The notes under the pieces: model-generated | What the model was told of the DNA's origin: nothing | The model's database searches: none | Seen by the model: the letters and a program-made list of their open reading frames with translations, nothing else | Part shown: in pieces, positions 51,015 to 60,820 of the stretch | Numbering within the stretch: position 1 is the first letter of the stretch | Layout of the letters: each line of letters begins with the position of its first letter | Position numbers and translations under genes: made by a program | Source of the DNA: Halomonas sp. THAF5a | GTDB taxonomy: Bacteria > Pseudomonadota > Gammaproteobacteria > Pseudomonadales > Halomonadaceae | Assembly (NCBI RefSeq): GCF_009363755.1 | Contig: NZ_CP045417.1 | Location: 1,736,001 to 1,800,000, forward strand | Length of the DNA: 64,000 nucleotides | Reading direction: 5' to 3'

Positions 51015-51176
51015 GCGATGGGCTCTAGGCCCGAGCTGCCGTGACCGCCGCCGCACGGTGCTCTCACGCGTCACTTCTCCGTGTGGCGCGCCTGCCGCTG
51101 ACCTTTCCCCCAGAAACCGGTCCACCGGCAATGTGAGATGTCCGCTACGTTTACCCTGATAGCCGGAGATCTCGCG

Positions 51177-51443
51177 ATGAAGCGTAATCGACATACCGAA
51201 GAGCAGGTCATCACCATCCTCAAGGCCCATGAGCGCGGCGTCTCGGTGGCCGAGCTGGCTCGGCAGAATGGTGTCACCGAGCAGACCATCTATCGCTGGA
51301 AGGCCAAGTACGGTGGTATGGAGGTATCAGAGGCCAAGCGTCTGCGGGAGCTGGAGGCAGAGAATGCCCGCCTGAAGAAGCTGCTGGCGGAAAGCGCTCT
51401 CGATAATGCCGCCCTCAAGGAGATCGTCTCGGGAAAGTGGTGA
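51177..51443 (+). CDS. IS3-family transposase OrfA
   Basis: An 88-residue helix-turn-helix protein (RHTEEQVITILKAHERGVS, NGVTEQTIYRWKAKYGGM) with the leucine-zipper-like C-terminal helix RELEAENARLKKLLAESALDNAALKEIV in pieces, typical of the IS407 group. ATG 51177 behind CCGGAGA. Its TGA overlaps orfB. Confidence 0.88.
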   Translation: MKRNRHTEEQVITILKAHERGVSVAELARQNGVTEQTIYRWKAKYGGMEVSEAKRLRELEAENARLKKLLAESALDNAALKEIVSGKW

Positions 51444-52255
51444 CGCCCGAAGCGAAGCGGCGGGCGGTAACGCACCTGGTGACAGGCGGCTGGCTCAGCC
51501 AGCGACATGCCTCTCGATTGCTGGGCCTGCCACGATCGGTGGCCCGCTACCAAGCGATGCCGCGTGACGATGAGCCGCTTCGGGCGCGACTGAACGCCTT
51601 GGCGACCTGCTACCCCCGCTACGGCTACCTGTTGCTGCACGCTCTGTTGCGTCAGGAGGGCTTGGTGGTGAATCGCAAGCGAACTTACCGACTGTACCGT
51701 GAGGCTGGGCTTCAGGTCCGCACCCGGCGGCGCAAGCGACTGGTGCGGCCAAGAGCGCCGATGCCGTGTCCGGACAGGCCCAACCAGCGTTGGTCGATGG
51801 ACTTCGTCTCGGATCAGCTGGCCTCAGGGCTCCGATTCCGCGTGCTGAACATCGTGGACGACTTCAGCAGAGAGTGTGTTGGTCAGCTGGTGGACACGTC
51901 CATTTCCGGGCGTCGCTTGGCCAGGTTCCTGGATGACATTGCGCAGCAGCGTGCGCTGCCCGCGTCGGTTGTCTGCGATAACGGCCCCGAACTGACCAGC
52001 AAGGCGATGTTCTTCTGGGCGCGTGAGCGGAAGGTCACGCTGGCCTTCATACAGCCGGGCAAGCCGACACAGAATGCCTTCATCGAGAGCTTCAACGGCA
52101 AGTTCCGGGATGGCTGTCTCAATCAGCACTGGTTTCTGAGCCTGAACGATGCAAGACATGAAATCGACCAATGGAGGACCCACTACAACCATGTCAGACC
52201 GCACAGCTCGCTGGGCTATTTGCCACCCGTCGCCTATGCCCAGCGGTGTGCATGA
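51437..52255 (+). CDS. IS3-family transposase OrfB (DDE integrase)
   Basis: A 272-residue DDE transposase in the -1 frame relative to orfA, overlapping by seven bases. HTH_21 region in the first 60 residues, then catalytic Asp in RWSMDFVSD, Asp in VVCDNGPE and Glu in NAFIESFNGKFRD. All three are present and the frame is intact, so it may be active. The GTG at 51437 could start independent translation; some relatives also make OrfAB by frameshifting. Confidence 0.88.
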   Translation: MVTPEAKRRAVTHLVTGGWLSQRHASRLLGLPRSVARYQAMPRDDEPLRARLNALATCYPRYGYLLLHALLRQEGLVVNRKRTYRLYREAGLQVRTRRRKRLVRPRAPMPCPDRPNQRWSMDFVSDQLASGLRFRVLNIVDDFSRECVGQLVDTSISGRRLARFLDDIAQQRALPASVVCDNGPELTSKAMFFWARERKVTLAFIQPGKPTQNAFIESFNGKFRDGCLNQHWFLSLNDARHEIDQWRTHYNHVRPHSSLGYLPPVAYAQRCA

Positions 52256-52785: not shown

Positions 52786-53988
52786 ATGAAGCTAGTTGCA
52801 TCAGATCCAGATATCCAGACAATTGTTGGAAGAATTCGGGATGGTGATATTGATCTTCAGCCCGACTTTCAAAGAGGAAGCGTATGGAATACGAAGAAAA
52901 AGCAGCTGCTTATTGACACCATTTTGAGGAATTGGCACATACCTCCAGTTCATATTGTGAGCCAAGATGATTCTTTGTGTGATGAGGTGTTAGATGGTCA
53001 GCAAAGGCTGGCTGCAATATACGATTTTTGCTGTAATAAGTTTTCTATCGATGGCTCGGTTGAGCCGCATGATGATTTGATAAGATCCTTGCATGGATGC
53101 AGGTTTTCGGATTTGTCACCGAGTGTGGCTAAGAAAATAAACAAGTTTTCTATAAGGGTGCTTTCGGTAACTGATTTTAACCCGGAAGAGCCCGGTGAGC
53201 TTTTTTATCGCTTAAATCATCAAGTGACCCTGACGCCAGCTGAAACGAGAAATGCATATTTTGGTGAAGTTAGGGACCAAGTTAGAGAGGTCGCTAAAAA
53301 CTTTGAGAGGTGGGGGTTAACAAAACAGACAATTGGGTTTAGTAATGCGAGAATGGCACATGATGATGTCGTTGCAAGGATAATGTGCGTGCTAGATTGG
53401 GGGCATATATCCGAAAAGGTTACCGCTAACAAGCTTGCGGATAGGTATCGGTCAGGACCAGCTTTCCCACAGCATATTGTAGATATTACATCAGCGGCAT
53501 TTGAAAGCCTAGGTGGTGCAATTAATAGCGATAATTACCAAATACGGTTGAATAAGGCAACTTTATGGTCATGGGTGCTATTTATCGCCGTTTTTCATCG
53601 ACTAGGTGGTGATAGAGATAATGAAGTGCTAGGTAAGCACATGGCTTGGTTTGAAGAGCTCAGGCTTTCAATGAAAGGGCTGGGGTTAGAGAACTCGCCA
53701 GAAGAGGTTTCTGTTGCAGCTGTGTTTAACGATAGAGCAGCATCCAGGGTGGCTGATGTAAGTTCCGTCGTTATACGAGATATTATTCTATGGGCATCTG
53801 TTAAAATGTCTCCCATGGCTAGTATTTTAGATTCGGCCCCATTAAAACTTGTTGAGCATGTCGAAAAAGCTGATCGCAATGTCAAGTGGTTTTCCCACAA
53901 CAGCTTTGATTTTGGGTTATCCAATTCAGGCCCAGAATCAGAGATGGTTGATGTCGCTCTTAAGGAATCATGGGGTGAAATTTCATGA
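52786..53988 (+). CDS. DUF262 protein, first gene of a candidate defence pair
   Basis: A 400-residue protein. The DUF262 (ParB/sulfiredoxin-like) domain fills the N-terminus: PDFQRGSVWNTKKKQLLIDTIL (Gln29-Arg30, shown across 26-47 in pieces) and DGQQRL (70-75), the signature NTP-binding/nuclease motif shared with GmrSD and SspE-type proteins. The C-terminal half (about 180-400) is helical and lacks the HNH motif of DUF1524 that often follows DUF262. AAGGTGG lies before ATG 52786; a GTG nine bases earlier is less well placed. GC is far below the chromosomal norm. The next gene starts within its stop codon (ATGA), so the two are translationally coupled. Confidence 0.8.
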   Translation: MKLVASDPDIQTIVGRIRDGDIDLQPDFQRGSVWNTKKKQLLIDTILRNWHIPPVHIVSQDDSLCDEVLDGQQRLAAIYDFCCNKFSIDGSVEPHDDLIRSLHGCRFSDLSPSVAKKINKFSIRVLSVTDFNPEEPGELFYRLNHQVTLTPAETRNAYFGEVRDQVREVAKNFERWGLTKQTIGFSNARMAHDDVVARIMCVLDWGHISEKVTANKLADRYRSGPAFPQHIVDITSAAFESLGGAINSDNYQIRLNKATLWSWVLFIAVFHRLGGDRDNEVLGKHMAWFEELRLSMKGLGLENSPEEVSVAAVFNDRAASRVADVSSVVIRDIILWASVKMSPMASILDSAPLKLVEHVEKADRNVKWFSHNSFDFGLSNSGPESEMVDVALKESWGEIS

Positions 53989-55463
53989 AGCAGGCAAGGA
54001 TAGCCGATTATTGGAAGGCGACATATAGAAACGAGCCTGGAACTGAACTGGTTTCAGTGACTTTTAATAGTGTGCCAACGCTGGGGAGTTTTTCTATTGA
54101 CCTTGGCAGGGGGATCTCGGCTATCACCGGTCTGAATGGCGCAGGGAAAAGTACTGTTCTTCACTCTATCTGGCTTTGCCTATGTGACGAAGCATCTTTG
54201 TCTGCTATGGCTCTTGACTCCCGTTTAACCGAAGGTAGTGTTGAGCTGTTGCTAAAGGTTGGTCATGCAAGTGTTAAGTTTGTATATGATTTTTCCGAGA
54301 CGGCCAGGAGTGTTGAATGTGATGATCCAGGTATTAACCCTTATGAGGTTCAAGCGTTTTTAGTAGATGTTGCAGAAGTAGCTCCTGCTTTACAAAGATA
54401 TTTTAGAAAAGACCCGAATTATCAAGATCTGCTTGATCAGCAGGGCAGTGCATCACTTAATGAAACAGAATTAGATGTTGCTAAGTTTGTTGCTGGAAGA
54501 GATTATGACTCGATCAAAGTTTTTGAGCTTGAAATTGATATAGGGTTAGATAACAACTGGGAGGTTTTGCCATACTTTCATGTGACACAAGATGGTGTGC
54601 AGTATGGCATAGAGCATTTAGGTTTAGGGGAGCTGTCTGGGCTTCTTATATATTGGGCGGCGAAAAGAATGCCAAGTGGGTCAATTCTATTAATTGACGA
54701 GCCTGAGTGCTTTCTTGCCTCGCACTCACAAGCTGCGATTTCAGACATAGTTGCTTACTTTTCTGCAGAGCGAGGTGTGTCATGCGTAATGACATCTCAT
54801 TCGGATACTGTTGTGGAAAAAATACCGCCTAAGCGTAGAATAGTTACTATAATGAATAGTCAGGGTGTTGCATGTACGACGGCTGAAAATGTCCCGAATC
54901 ATTTAACTAAAATCGGGGTTGGTAAAGGAACAAAGTTAGTTGCAGTCACCGAAGATCACGCAGCTACGATTTTTTTGAAGGAGATGATAACAATCGGGGC
55001 ACCTGCGTTAAGGGGGTCTGTTGAGATATGCTGGGCAGGCAGTTCGGGAGAAGTGGTTACAGCTTTGAATGGTCTTGTAGAAGGTTTTGATAATCTCTCG
55101 TTAAAATTTGTGGGGGTTTTGGATGGTGATCAGAAGAGTGAGAAGCATAGATGTAAGTGGCCGCTAAGATACTTGCCGACGGATGAGGATCCCGAGCAAG
55201 TCGCAAAACTGTCTGCGTATAATAATGTGGGTTTGCTGTCGCAGTCATTTGGCGTAAACGAAGCTGAGATACATGCCGCACTGGCAGCAGCAAATGGCGC
55301 CGACTATCATGACTGGCCATTTATAGTGGCGAGGCAGCTAGGTCGTAGGCATACTGATGTTTTAGAGGTGTGCCTGAGAGGATATGTGGCGAATGATATG
55401 CCTAGTGATGAGCTACATCAATTTATAAAGTGCCTGACGAGCAGGGAGGTTTTGCCAGCGTAG
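53985..55463 (+). CDS. OLD-like ABC ATPase with C-terminal TOPRIM-like region
   Basis: A 492-residue protein. Walker A GLNGAGKST (49-57), signature-like region LGLGELSGLLIYW (about 213-225), Walker B ILLIDEPECF (Asp238, Glu239) and switch His272 in MTSHSDT form an ABC/SMC-type head with no long coiled coil. Beyond residue 315 comes a TOPRIM-like order: TEDH (Glu323) and VLDGDQK (Asp380, Asp382). This is the OLD-family layout, as in GajA and retron-associated OLD nucleases. The gene is AT-rich and coupled to the DUF262 gene; nothing else shares the transcript downstream. Nuclease activity is inferred. Confidence 0.8.
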   Translation: MKQARIADYWKATYRNEPGTELVSVTFNSVPTLGSFSIDLGRGISAITGLNGAGKSTVLHSIWLCLCDEASLSAMALDSRLTEGSVELLLKVGHASVKFVYDFSETARSVECDDPGINPYEVQAFLVDVAEVAPALQRYFRKDPNYQDLLDQQGSASLNETELDVAKFVAGRDYDSIKVFELEIDIGLDNNWEVLPYFHVTQDGVQYGIEHLGLGELSGLLIYWAAKRMPSGSILLIDEPECFLASHSQAAISDIVAYFSAERGVSCVMTSHSDTVVEKIPPKRRIVTIMNSQGVACTTAENVPNHLTKIGVGKGTKLVAVTEDHAATIFLKEMITIGAPALRGSVEICWAGSSGEVVTALNGLVEGFDNLSLKFVGVLDGDQKSEKHRCKWPLRYLPTDEDPEQVAKLSAYNNVGLLSQSFGVNEAEIHAALAAANGADYHDWPFIVARQLGRRHTDVLEVCLRGYVANDMPSDELHQFIKCLTSREVLPA

Positions 55464-57634: not shown

Positions 57635-57956
57635 ATTCTTGCTCCAGGTGGATTAAGGTTATTTATAGGGTTTTTTCTACATTCCAATCAATAAGCATGA
57701 AGACTAAGATTGGTAAAAGATCAGAGCAGCTTGCCAAGGATGGTCATGCTGGCAGGATATATCGGTTACCAAGATTTTCCGATTCCGTAGATACATCTTT
57801 GGGAAGCTCCTCACGCACTACCGTCCATGCCTGACACGTTAAGATCGCTCCTGCCATCTATATAGTAGCCTCTGAATAATCGTTGCGCTTCTGTGATCGC
57901 CTTTAGCATTGAGCGGGACTAGGGACGGTCTCCACTCCGAGGTCTATCCTCACAGC
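57635..57956. other. 322-base gap before the SRAP gene
   Basis: No gene, repeat or LexA-type site is recognised. It is mixed composition, AT-rich near the small peptide gene and becoming GC-rich towards the SRAP gene. It contains the divergent promoters of both. Confidence 0.4.
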
Positions 57957-58616
57957 ATGTGTGGACGATTCGCGCTGTTCAGCCCCTACCCAAAGCTCTC
58001 AGCGGCTCTTCGATTGCCGCTAGAGCGTAGCGAGATTCGGCCACGCTACAACGTCGCGCCAGGTACTTGGATTGCCGCTATACGGCACCCAGAGGAGGGC
58101 GCGCCACTGGTGTTGGACGAAGTGTGGTGGGGCTACCGGCCTCACTGGGCCAATGAGGGCGCGCCGGAGCCGATCAACGCGAAGAGTGAGCGTGTCGCCG
58201 TCTCCAACTACTTCCGCGGGGCGTTCGCGCATCATCGCTGTTTGGTGCCGGCAGACGGCTGGTATGAATGGCATTGGCATCCTGGCGGAAAACAGCCCTA
58301 TTTCATCACCCGCGCTGACCGTGAGCCAATCTGGCTCGCTGCCATATGGGCCGAGCGGCCGGATGGCGCTCCGGGCTGCGCCATCCTCACCGAACCGGCC
58401 CGTGGCGTGGCCAAGGAGATCCATCCGCGCATGCCGCTGGCCCTGGACAACGAGAGCCTGGAGCCCTGGCTCGATCCTCACCTGATTGACCGAGAGACGA
58501 TCCGACAGGTGGTTCACCACCTACCCGCCGACATGCTTACCCACTGGCCGGTGAGCACGCGGGTCAACACGCCCACTCACGATGATGCCGATCTGATCGA
58601 GCCCATCGCGTCCTGA
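57957..58616 (+). CDS. yedK: SRAP-domain abasic-site-processing protein (YedK/HMCES-like)
   Basis: A 219-residue protein. The start must be ATG 57957 so that Cys2 (MCGRFALF) becomes the N-terminal residue, the group that forms the thiazolidine crosslink with an abasic site. Other motifs: RPRYNVAPG, INAKSERV (Asn and Glu), CLVPADGWYEW and EIHPRMPL with the active-site His. It shields abasic sites in single-stranded DNA, and bacterial relatives are SOS-linked. The umuDC genes lie just downstream on the other strand. Confidence 0.9.
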   Translation: MCGRFALFSPYPKLSAALRLPLERSEIRPRYNVAPGTWIAAIRHPEEGAPLVLDEVWWGYRPHWANEGAPEPINAKSERVAVSNYFRGAFAHHRCLVPADGWYEWHWHPGGKQPYFITRADREPIWLAAIWAERPDGAPGCAILTEPARGVAKEIHPRMPLALDNESLEPWLDPHLIDRETIRQVVHHLPADMLTHWPVSTRVNTPTHDDADLIEPIAS

Positions 58617-58801
58617 TTCCAGTGGTGCTCTGTGATGTGTCCGCACGCCTGGCAGGTGATGCGGTAGCGCCTTCCATCGACCTTCTCCAGGTCGAACGCC
58701 GCCCAGTGTGGACCGTCCTGCGCACGGATCTCGGTGGCACCGCATGGGCACATCAGAACCCACCGCCCTTGGGGCACTGGCATCAGTGTGATCTCCGGCA
58801 T
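58577..58801 (-). CDS. Small zinc-ribbon protein
   Basis: A 74-residue hypothetical. LMCPCGATEI and ITCQACGHITEHHW give a CxC...CxxC arrangement suitable for one zinc. GGAGGAG lies eight bases before ATG 58801. Its last 40 bases overlap the SRAP gene on the opposite strand. Function unknown. Confidence 0.6.
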   Translation of the reverse strand: MPEITLMPVPQGRWVLMCPCGATEIRAQDGPHWAAFDLEKVDGRRYRITCQACGHITEHHWNQDAMGSIRSASS

Positions 58802-58899
58802 GGCGACTCCTCCCTGTTGTACTCCACCGTAGTTGGCAGGGAAGGGCCGGGATGTAGGAGATCCTCGACAGGGGGCGTGCTGAAACGCTGAGGGTGGTG

Positions 58900-60177
58900 T
58901 CAGGTTCTCGCCTTGGGTAGCTCATTCCAACGCGTGGTCCAGCATGGTGTGCGGTGAGTGCAGCGCAGATGCCAGGCGGCGTTCTTGCTGGGCATGCCGA
59001 GTCGCACGGTGCCGCTGCCCATCCGCTGGTTGAGCTCGTCCAGGGCCGTCATCAGCTTGTGGTCGCGATCGCGCTGGTCGGCGCGCTCGGGCGTGTCGAG
59101 TAGCGAGAGCTTCTGACGGTTGGCGTCCACCAGGTCGAGCAGCATCACCCCTCCTTTCATGAACCGGTACCCGCGGCGATAGACCGTCTCGAGCCCTTGG
59201 CGGGCGGCGGTCAGGATCAGCCGGCTGTCGTCAGTGGGCTCGGGCAGCTCGACAACGGCGCTGGGCGAGTATTGGGCCAGATCCAGTCGGTGGCGGTTGG
59301 TCTTGAGGAAGATGAGCACGGCGCGGGCGTGGCTATCCTGCTGGCGCAGTTTCTCGGCGCCGCGCTGGGCGTGCTGGCGGATGGCTTCCTGCAGCTCGCC
59401 CTGGTCGCTGGTGAGGCGGCCAAAGGAGCGGGAGGTCATTATGCGGTCTCTGGGCCGGTCGGCGTCGTTGAGTTCAATGCAGGGCGTCCCTTGGAGCTCG
59501 CGCACGGTCCGCTCGAGAGTGACGGAGAAGCGGCGGCGTATGGCCTTAGGGTCCGCCTGGGCGAGATCCCAGGCGGTGCGGATCCCCATGATGGCAAGCC
59601 GCTCGACCAGCCTCCGGCCGACGCCCCAGACGTCGCCGAGCTGGGTGCCCTCCAACAGGTGGCGGGTAGCGTCATCGTCGGGTGTTAGCACGCAGACGCC
59701 GCGGAACATCGGCACTTTCTTTGCCGCTCGGTTGGCCAGTTTCGCAAGGGTGCGGCTGGGGGCAACTCCCACGCTGACAGGGATGCCGGTGTACTGTCGC
59801 ACCTTACGGTGGATCTCGCGGGCGTGGGTCAGAAGCTGCTCGGGCTTGAACCCGTCAGCGCGGATGAACATCTCATCGATAGAGTAGGGCTCGACGCCGG
59901 CGGAGAACTCCTCGAGGACCTCGCGCACCCGGGCAGACATGTCGCCGTAGAGCTCGTAGTTGGAGGAGAGCAGCCGGATGCGGCCCTGGTTGACAAGATT
60001 CTGCAGCTCGAAGGCTGGGGTGCCCATCTCAACCCCCATCTGCTTCAGCTCGTTGGATCGGGCGATCACGCAGCCATCGTTGTTGGACATCACCCCCACG
60101 GGGACGCCCTCGAGCCGTGGCTGAAAGACCCGCTCGCAGCTCACATAGAAGTTGTTGCAGTCCACCAGGCCGATCAT
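58900..60177 (-). CDS. umuC: DNA polymerase V catalytic subunit
   Basis: A 425-residue Y-family translesion polymerase. MIGLVDCNNFYVSCERVF (metal Asp), GVMSNNDGCVIARSNE and YSIDEMFI (catalytic Asp-Glu) open the protein; GIPVSVGVAPSRTLAKLAN and LGDVWGVGRRLVERL follow, then the little-finger region and a C-terminal DUF4113-type tail (LLDLVDANRQKLSL). ATG 60177 overlaps the umuD stop. Confidence 0.93.
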   Translation of the reverse strand: MIGLVDCNNFYVSCERVFQPRLEGVPVGVMSNNDGCVIARSNELKQMGVEMGTPAFELQNLVNQGRIRLLSSNYELYGDMSARVREVLEEFSAGVEPYSIDEMFIRADGFKPEQLLTHAREIHRKVRQYTGIPVSVGVAPSRTLAKLANRAAKKVPMFRGVCVLTPDDDATRHLLEGTQLGDVWGVGRRLVERLAIMGIRTAWDLAQADPKAIRRRFSVTLERTVRELQGTPCIELNDADRPRDRIMTSRSFGRLTSDQGELQEAIRQHAQRGAEKLRQQDSHARAVLIFLKTNRHRLDLAQYSPSAVVELPEPTDDSRLILTAARQGLETVYRRGYRFMKGGVMLLDLVDANRQKLSLLDTPERADQRDRDHKLMTALDELNQRMGSGTVRLGMPSKNAAWHLRCTHRTPCWTTRWNELPKART

Positions 60178-60614
60178 ACGGGGTACTCGTGAATGACCGA
60201 GCGCACCACGCCCCACAGCTGGCAGTCCAGGTCCGAGATAGGGATCGGGGCATAGCGGTCGTTGCCGGAGCAGAGATAGGGTCGCCGGCCGAGGAGTTCG
60301 TAGCGTTTTACGATGATCTCGCCATCTACCAGAGCGACGACGATATGGCCGGGGCGGGCATCCACGGAGCGATCGACCACCAGGGTGTCGCCATCCTGGA
60401 TGCCGAAGCCCTCCATGCTGTCGCCGGTGACGGTCATGAAGAAGGTAGCCGAAGGCCGCTTCACCAGCCGCTCGTTGAGGTCGAGCGTGCGGCCGACATA
60501 GTCCTCCGCCGGCGAGGGAAAGCCAGAGATCCCCGCCCGGATGGTGGCCAGTGGATGGGGCAGGGCGTGGTAAGTGGGGGCAGGATGGGGGTGGAATATC
60601 TCAGAAGGGCGCAT
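60174..60614 (-). CDS. umuD: DNA polymerase V subunit UmuD
   Basis: A 146-residue S24-family protein. RecA-stimulated self-cleavage should occur at Ala27-Gly28 (TIRAGISGFPSPAEDY), using Ser66 (TGDSMEG) and Lys103 (IIVKRY). ATG 60614 is chosen because the next upstream in-frame start would place the LexA box inside the coding region; the length then equals typical UmuD. Operon umuD-umuC on the minus strand. Confidence 0.93.
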   Translation of the reverse strand: MRPSEIFHPHPAPTYHALPHPLATIRAGISGFPSPAEDYVGRTLDLNERLVKRPSATFFMTVTGDSMEGFGIQDGDTLVVDRSVDARPGHIVVALVDGEIIVKRYELLGRRPYLCSGNDRYAPIPISDLDCQLWGVVRSVIHEYPV

Positions 60615-60631
60615 AGCGGGTCTCTCACCAA

Positions 60632-60651
60632 TACTGTTCGTATATACAGTA
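60632..60651 (-). promoter_or_regulatory. LexA box of umuDC
   Basis: TACTGT, eight intervening bases TCGTATAT, then ACAGTA: a near-perfect gammaproteobacterial SOS box, 18 bases before the umuD start. It implies LexA repression and damage induction. Confidence 0.93.
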
Positions 60652-60820
60652 TTTGTCACTTGGGCGTGAGCAGGCAAACGCTAATGCAATCACGAGACAA
60701 ATGGTCCAGCGGGTGGGCAGACCGCCCGACACTGAGGCGAACCCTCCATAGAGAAGGAAAGGGGTGGGGATCAGGCAGGAGGTTAGACTTTCGTCTATTA
60801 TTTGCTGGTCTAGGCAGGGC
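60652..60820. other. Region upstream of umuD without a gene
   Basis: No coding potential is recognised. It is the left part of a roughly 300-base non-coding interval between umuD and tRNA-Ser; the right part holds the repeat cluster and terminator listed separately. Confidence 0.4.

Follow-up and report, generated by a model that had tools for sequence, protein, structure and literature searches.

A 64,000-nt stretch of Halomonas sp. THAF5a DNA (NZ_CP045417.1, positions 1,736,001 to 1,800,000; hereafter the window) carries two genes, here called A and B, which a preliminary description of the sequence had read as a candidate defence system: A encodes a DUF262 protein, B encodes an OLD-type ABC ATPase-TOPRIM protein, and the start of B overlaps the stop of A by 4 nt (ATGA). 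The coordinates, strand and overlap given in that description were exact on rechecking, and the pair is indeed far more AT-rich than the chromosome, with a GC content of 0.438 vs 0.703 for window positions 1-48000.

Gene A matched Pfam GmrSD_N/DUF262 (PF03235, E = 4.9e-20, residues 11-159), and no second Pfam family, HNH/DUF1524 included, was detected in it at E ≤ 1, in agreement with the earlier reading of a DUF262 core that lacks an HNH/DUF1524 domain. The protein is laid out as a ParB/Srx-fold N-terminal domain (about residues 1-158) followed by a helical C-terminal domain, and its structural neighbours are BrxU, SspE and DndI. The QR and DGQQRL motifs lie where they had been placed and are conserved (D70, G71, Q73, R74 and L75 in 68/68 relatives, Q72 in 67/68). 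Residue conservation was counted over 69 aligned pairs, 66 of them distinct (L043 and L171, L044 and L156, and L178 and L179 are identical in both proteins; L numbers denote loci), after L157 and L189 had been dropped as weak; gaps were left out of the counts.

Gene B scored above the cut-offs for PF13304 (AAA_21) and PF13476 (AAA_23). The complete ABC head attributed to it is present and near-invariant: Walker A residues G49, N51, G52, G54 and K55 were invariant (67/67), as was E239 (68/68), the exception being position 238, which is Glu in 58 relatives and Asp in 10. The TOPRIM-like acidic residues E323, D380 and D382 also lie at the positions first proposed and are near-invariant (Table 1). 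Pfam TOPRIM models gave no match with B at E ≤ 1. In an AlphaFold2 model of B (pLDDT 92.6, pTM 0.75), a check that the preliminary description had suggested, a TOPRIM fold was present at the C-terminus, with a strand (318-322) ending at E323, a helix, a second strand (346-350), a helix, and a third strand (374-379) ending at D380-x-D382. The best Foldseek match was TsOLD (E = 1.5e-12 over 559 columns, with a TM-score of only 0.36), followed by GajA chains at ranks 2-5, and retron Eco8 chains were also among the matches. When B was compared with GajA using hhalign, E323 and D380 aligned. Beyond the TOPRIM region lies a D/E/N-x-H-D-W motif (B residues 440-444, window 55302-55316), whose His442 and Asp443 perhaps have a catalytic or a structural role.

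Table 1. Features of the window, and AT-rich cargo of three own-genus loci. Positions are those of the window unless a locus is named; fractions give residue conservation.
Feature	Position	Strand	Basis or remark
Gene A, 400-aa DUF262 (GmrSD_N) protein	52786..53988	+	ORF list, Pfam, PADLOC, structure comparison
QR motif, A residues 29-30	52870..52875	+	65/65 conserved
DGQQRL NTP-pocket motif, A residues 70-75	52993..53010	+	Alignment of 69 pairs
Gene B, 492-aa OLD-type ABC ATPase-TOPRIM protein	53985..55463	+	Pfam, PADLOC, AlphaFold2, Foldseek
Walker A GLNGAGKST, B residues 49-57	54129..54155	+	Sequence and alignment
Walker B D238-E239	54696..54701	+	Sequence and alignment
H-loop His272	54798..54800	+	69/69
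TOPRIM Glu323-Asp324, end of first TOPRIM strand	54951..54956	+	68/69 each
TOPRIM Asp380-x-Asp382	55122..55130	+	68/68 each
His442-Asp443 motif	55308..55313	+	67/67 each
Transposase ORFs, upstream of pair	51138-52255		ORF list
Endonuclease-like gene (by reading), C-terminal helix-hairpin-helix	55586-56644		Pfam (helix-hairpin-helix); downstream of pair
SRAP, umuC-like and umuD-like ORFs beside tRNA-Ser	57909-60677		Downstream of pair
HipA-like kinase and partner	L211 11790-13483		AT-rich cargo; Pfam match below cut-off
511-aa ORC-CDC6-like ATPase	L212 10350-11885		AT-rich cargo; Pfam match below cut-off
Two genes without Pfam match	L214 11625-12934		AT-rich cargo

The pairing of A and B is conserved. 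A first relative, found in the same class (G137), carries both genes with the same overlap (B 25% and A 38% identical). For a species-wide scan, a six-row alignment was compared with one genome per species (84,980 species), and the best 80 of 139 relatives were considered; because the scan relies on two peptide patterns, its counts of relatives are lower bounds. A and B were adjacent on one strand in 63 of these 80, with both genes near full length in 59 of the 63. Judged from record titles, the 63 pairs belong to six phyla (Pseudomonadota 30, Bacillota 19, Actinomycetota 10, Verrucomicrobiota 2, Bacteroidota 1, Hydrogenedentota 1). Two of the conditions that the preliminary description had named as refuting its reading, lack of a conserved pairing and lack of a C-terminal TOPRIM fold, thus do not apply. 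Closest to the window pair is one in the verrucomicrobium Pelagicoccus (A 62%, B 50%). Nine of the 80 were broken or cut close relatives: A is interrupted beside B in L138, B is truncated in L157, A stands without detectable B in L170, L176 and L184, the contig ends at the pair in L172, L182 and L185, and in Afipia (L181 6001-7236) an in-frame deletion has left a natural remnant that starts with the first ~141 residues of A and continues into the C-terminal portion of B. Another eight were distant DUF262s (L186, L188, L189, L191-L195). Family B (≥100 bits) was found in 0 of 68 other DUF262 loci, these eight included, 6 of the 68 showing less than 1 kb downstream. The distant DUF262 of L189 (5722-8138, Candidatus Palauibacter) overlaps a 450-aa ATPase with a weak 51-bit profile match, and is perhaps another branch.

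A and B evolve together. Patristic distances of A and B correlated with r = 0.80 over the 65 of 69 pairs kept (L155, L158, L166 and L180 were dropped as short; three identical duplicates are included), compared with a maximum of 0.15 in 1000 shuffles, and 31 of 39 well-supported splits in the A tree recur in the B tree. In a FastTree phylogeny, the family DUF262s (n = 67) were monophyletic with respect to 66 others (6 Menshen-like, 60 various), with a support of 0.988. Gene overlap was at most 25 nt in 53/68 loci and exactly 4 nt in 26. The pair was AT-richer than its flanks in 64/65 loci, by a mean of 11 percentage points, which we read as a signature of horizontal transfer.

On viral contigs, an alignment of diverse DUF262s retrieved 74 loci, in which B lay directly 3′ in the four closest to A, two of these pairs recurring in identical form among the genome loci retrieved afterwards. 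With one single-protein and two two-row queries, no A-B pair was obtained on viral contigs, and BLAST detected no counterpart of A in the loci of three OLD-like viral-contig matches. In plasmid and phage records, tblastn with B gave one weak plasmid match (25% over 31% of B), beside which no DUF262 is annotated, and no phage match. With A, tblastn matched 124 plasmid records, none covering 80% of A, and in five that were opened the partners were a kinase, a hypothetical protein, a DEAD-box helicase, none, and a HEPN protein. B was found in 2/274 genomes of the class at E ≤ 1e-8, the own genome included; a two-row B profile found 2/398 genomes of the phylum at E ≤ 1e-15, one being the own genome and the other holding an OLD-like gene next to an ORF that resembles a DNA methyltransferase; and a two-row A profile found 4/369 genomes of the class at E ≤ 1e-30 (the own genome, G137, L040 and L041). 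The DUF262 proteins of L040 and L041 have an HNH-like C-terminal stretch (by eye) and show no B. Separately, a DUF262 (~360 aa) followed directly by a ~261-aa protein recurs in L009, L045, L048, L052, L053, L055 and L056, the ~261-aa partner being annotated as HEPN in a Klebsiella plasmid record; this looks like another DUF262-based module.

Occurrence in viral contigs and as AT-rich inserts would also suit a non-defence module of mobile elements, acting as a toxin-antitoxin or stability system. We consider this very improbable, since A and B are both long and enzyme-like, known defence genes adjoin the pair in some relatives, and we know of no stability function of OLD nucleases. The defence genes in question, identified using PADLOC, are GajA beside the pair in L044 and L156 (identical pairs, one count) with GajB also beside L044, a retron-type reverse transcriptase upstream of the pair in L153, DndD beside L164 and L174, DndC beside L164 and L177, and an NsnA-like DUF262 in L045. 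Ten interesting-looking neighbour proteins had been picked for these single scans; in addition, 274 flanking ORFs from 66 loci were motif-scanned, and 100 of the 274 entered group scans, which list the top 25 families and in which DndD models matched 3/100. In the motif scan, L164, L174 and L177 each showed both a P-loop protein and an SGGKDS protein adjoining the pair. A putative defence role of A-B is supported by context. These three Dnd-adjoining pairs (Alteromonas, Photorhabdus) also have a longer B, of 512-557 aa.

The Dnd-type genes at these three loci bear on a type IV-like restriction reading, in which A recognizes DNA that carries modifications or phosphorothioates, B selectively cuts that DNA, and the host survives. 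BrxU, SspE and DndI, the structural neighbours of A, are modification-dependent enzymes (PMC10952713, PMC11662687; statements from the literature refer throughout to the passages of the cited papers drawn on here), but their HNH domain is missing from A, an SGGKDS (DndC-like) neighbour occurred in only 3/66 loci, and the own genome gave a weak 24-bit DndC-like match. For the family as a whole we therefore regard this reading as unlikely; for the few Dnd-linked loci, phosphorothioate sensing is plausible.

The preliminary description knew of no named system pairing a DUF262 protein with an OLD-like protein alone, a claim that stands only in part. The closest named system is Menshen, to which we take the gene prefix Nsn to refer: the best PADLOC match of A was NsnA (6.4e-33, partial, residues 6-205), the second match of B was NsnB (5.3e-15), and in both cases a DUF262 gene is followed by an ABC-type ATPase gene. 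However, the A-B family differs from Menshen-like loci in two tested features, TOPRIM and NsnC. NsnC was present in 18/398 genomes of the phylum, and three loci that were opened read DUF262-ATPase-NsnC. In six NsnBs encoded next to NsnC, the protein stops 71-73 residues beyond the H-loop, whereas B continues for 220. All four NsnBs scanned (from L032-L037) end in Pfam DUF3696, no TOPRIM match was found in these or in four NsnCs scanned with Pfam, and the four NsnCs (L032-L037) matched no Pfam family above cut-off. An NsnC profile matched 0/68 family loci and nothing in the window, but 4/4 Menshen-like control loci; the PADLOC NsnC model gave no match in the own genome at E ≤ 1e-3, and likewise none in the control genomes. 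NsnC-bearing loci, then, have an ATPase without TOPRIM followed by NsnC, whereas in the A-B family TOPRIM is fused to the ATPase and NsnC was not found.

These differences can also be taken within Menshen, A-B being a subtype in which an ATPase-fused TOPRIM takes the place of the separate effector NsnC while the principle, control of a nuclease by DUF262 and an ABC ATPase, is unchanged. Besides the PADLOC matches and gene order, a review associates one Menshen component with an OLD-family TOPRIM (PMC10952713); this was not borne out in loci L032-L037, and on the strength of that sentence, Menshen as published may already include TOPRIM-bearing loci. To the differences in B length, DUF3696 and NsnC are added, on the opposing side, that the family DUF262s form a clade apart from the 6 Menshen-like NsnAs, that the NsnA model is unspecific (3.7e-84 for the DUF262 of L045, whose small partner has no PADLOC match), and that B scored better on a retron OLD model, its best PADLOC match (ATPase-Toprim_I-B, 2.9e-17), than on NsnB. 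On balance we hold the subtype reading doubtful, though the A-B family probably works like Menshen. The same kind of layout as in Menshen is found in ptuXYZ (PMC11980606). Apart from the Menshen sentences of PMC10952713, a pair of DUF262 and OLD ATPase-TOPRIM without NsnC is undescribed in the available passages of the literature matches listed.

The partner of B also separates the pair from other known systems. OLD proteins have been divided by partner into classes with none (1), a UvrD-like helicase (2), a reverse transcriptase (3) and separate PARIS genes (4), and a DUF262 partner is not listed among classes 1-4 in that passage (PMC10568477); according to PMC12839542, TOPRIM-linked OLD ATPases and the genes around them had been catalogued before. 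Gabija GajA (class 2) shares the ABC ATPase-TOPRIM architecture of B, as its Foldseek ranks reflect, but its partner is a UvrD helicase rather than a DUF262, and at 492 aa B is shorter than the 604-aa GajA beside L044. No GajB-type partner was found, a DUF262 adjoining or overlapping B in the 69 pairs, which were selected for DUF262. Retron type I-B/Eco8 (class 3), likewise near B in PADLOC and Foldseek, differs in that the partner of B is a DUF262. We know of no DUF262 partner of PARIS (AriA/AriB, class 4), which resembles B in combining an OLD-type ATPase with a TOPRIM nuclease. In PARIS, however, the two functions are in separate genes as a rule (PMC10568477). On the side of A, GmrSD, BrxU, SspE and DndI share the DUF262 ParB-fold NTPase domain with DGQQR, but carry DUF1524/HNH (PMC10952713, PMC11662687), which A does not.

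In SspE, DndI and BrxU, NTP binding and hydrolysis by DUF262 license a fused nuclease (PMC10952713, PMC11662687), and in Gabija and retron-Eco8, OLD ATPase-nucleases work together with partners and are activated during infection (PMC10568477, PMC12887533). Since it is the simplest combination of these known behaviours, we favour a gating or sensing role for A and an effector role for B, and consider A-B to be probably a horizontally moving two-gene anti-phage module composed of a DUF262 sensor or gate and an OLD-type TOPRIM nuclease effector. In such a module, A would be a ParB/Srx-fold NTPase and B an OLD-type ABC ATPase with a TOPRIM nuclease, the two most likely joined in a complex that keeps the nuclease inactive until infection. 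The cue, perhaps a phage protein or else a structure or modification of phage DNA, would shift A to another NTP state; a rearrangement of the ATPase head in B would follow, and the TOPRIM site would cut nucleic acid, preferably DNA and possibly tRNA. The phage would be stopped, probably at the cost of the cell, making the outcome abortive rather than selective.

The roles might instead be swapped, with B as sensor and A as an effector regulated by B, in which case A would be a ParB/Srx enzyme that depletes NTPs or acts as a nickase. Proteins of the ParB/Srx fold are able to nick DNA and perhaps to break down nucleotides (PMC12839542, PMC10853773), and PtuX, a DUF262 protein, has been assigned a putative nuclease function (PMC11980606). 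We find this improbable, as the near-invariant TOPRIM acidic residues of B are those expected of a catalytic B.

Several observations nevertheless weigh against the proposed gate-and-effector module. Foldseek returned no match for A at E 0.001 (best 9.3e-3), and in the VIA-align rows, coverage of B is mostly confined to residues 16-313, the ATPase head. In retron-Eco8, the second OLD catalytic Glu is E402, four residues after E398 (PMC12887533); it was not found in the A-B family, where B position 327 is Ala in 54, Gly in 10, Ser in 4 and Leu in 1 (n = 69), and hhalign placed D382 of B on a Lys of GajA. Because of these two points, the TOPRIM site of B appears to depart from the textbook OLD site and could be weak or cut RNA, with H442-D443 or E404 as possible substitutes for the second Glu. 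As that Glu was not found, B is best described as OLD-type, not as a proven OLD nuclease. Finally, the defence neighbours come from a few hand-picked loci with no background rate, and no enrichment is claimed.

Around the pair in the window, the transposase remains noted in the preliminary description are present upstream as ORFs, presumably of the IS3 type. The endonuclease-like gene downstream is split by an in-frame stop into 94-aa and 239-aa ORFs and has a decaying look. As for the SOS genes said to lie nearby, SRAP was confirmed using Pfam, while ORFs 58900-60677 are read as umuC and umuD from the ORF list only. A homologue of the umuC-like gene was found in 38/41 own-genus genomes. Among the five own-genus relatives with fetched surroundings, the umuC-like gene was kept in all five and the SRAP stretch in four, and none showed DNA similarity to the A-B pair; from this, we concluded that the window pair sits in a variable stretch of the genome. 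In one own-genus locus (L213), the transposase and the endonuclease-like gene are both retained in part. Different AT-rich cargo adjoins umuC/SRAP in three others (L211, L212 and L214), a candidate unnamed cargo; since none of its five proteins had a PADLOC match at E ≤ 1e-3, we do not claim the umuC-side slot as a defence hotspot. Promoter and terminator scans did not exceed shuffles (9 vs 6.0 and 3 vs 2.5, respectively).

Going further, we tentatively propose, as a reading with a little less than an even chance, that A-B is a distinct, unnamed and widespread anti-phage system, a fifth OLD class gated by a ParB-fold NTPase, in which Glu-Asp, DxD and an invariant His-Asp make up the TOPRIM site in place of the second OLD Glu; the system may be coupled to DNA phosphorothioation in some lineages. 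If true, the ParB-fold NTPase partner would represent a further control principle acting on an OLD effector. Its small size, its spread over six phyla in our survey and its clear candidate active-site residues make the family easy to test. Such a partner would also allow one to ask whether DUF262 is a general gate for different nucleases: HNH in SspE and BrxU, NsnC in Menshen, and TOPRIM here.

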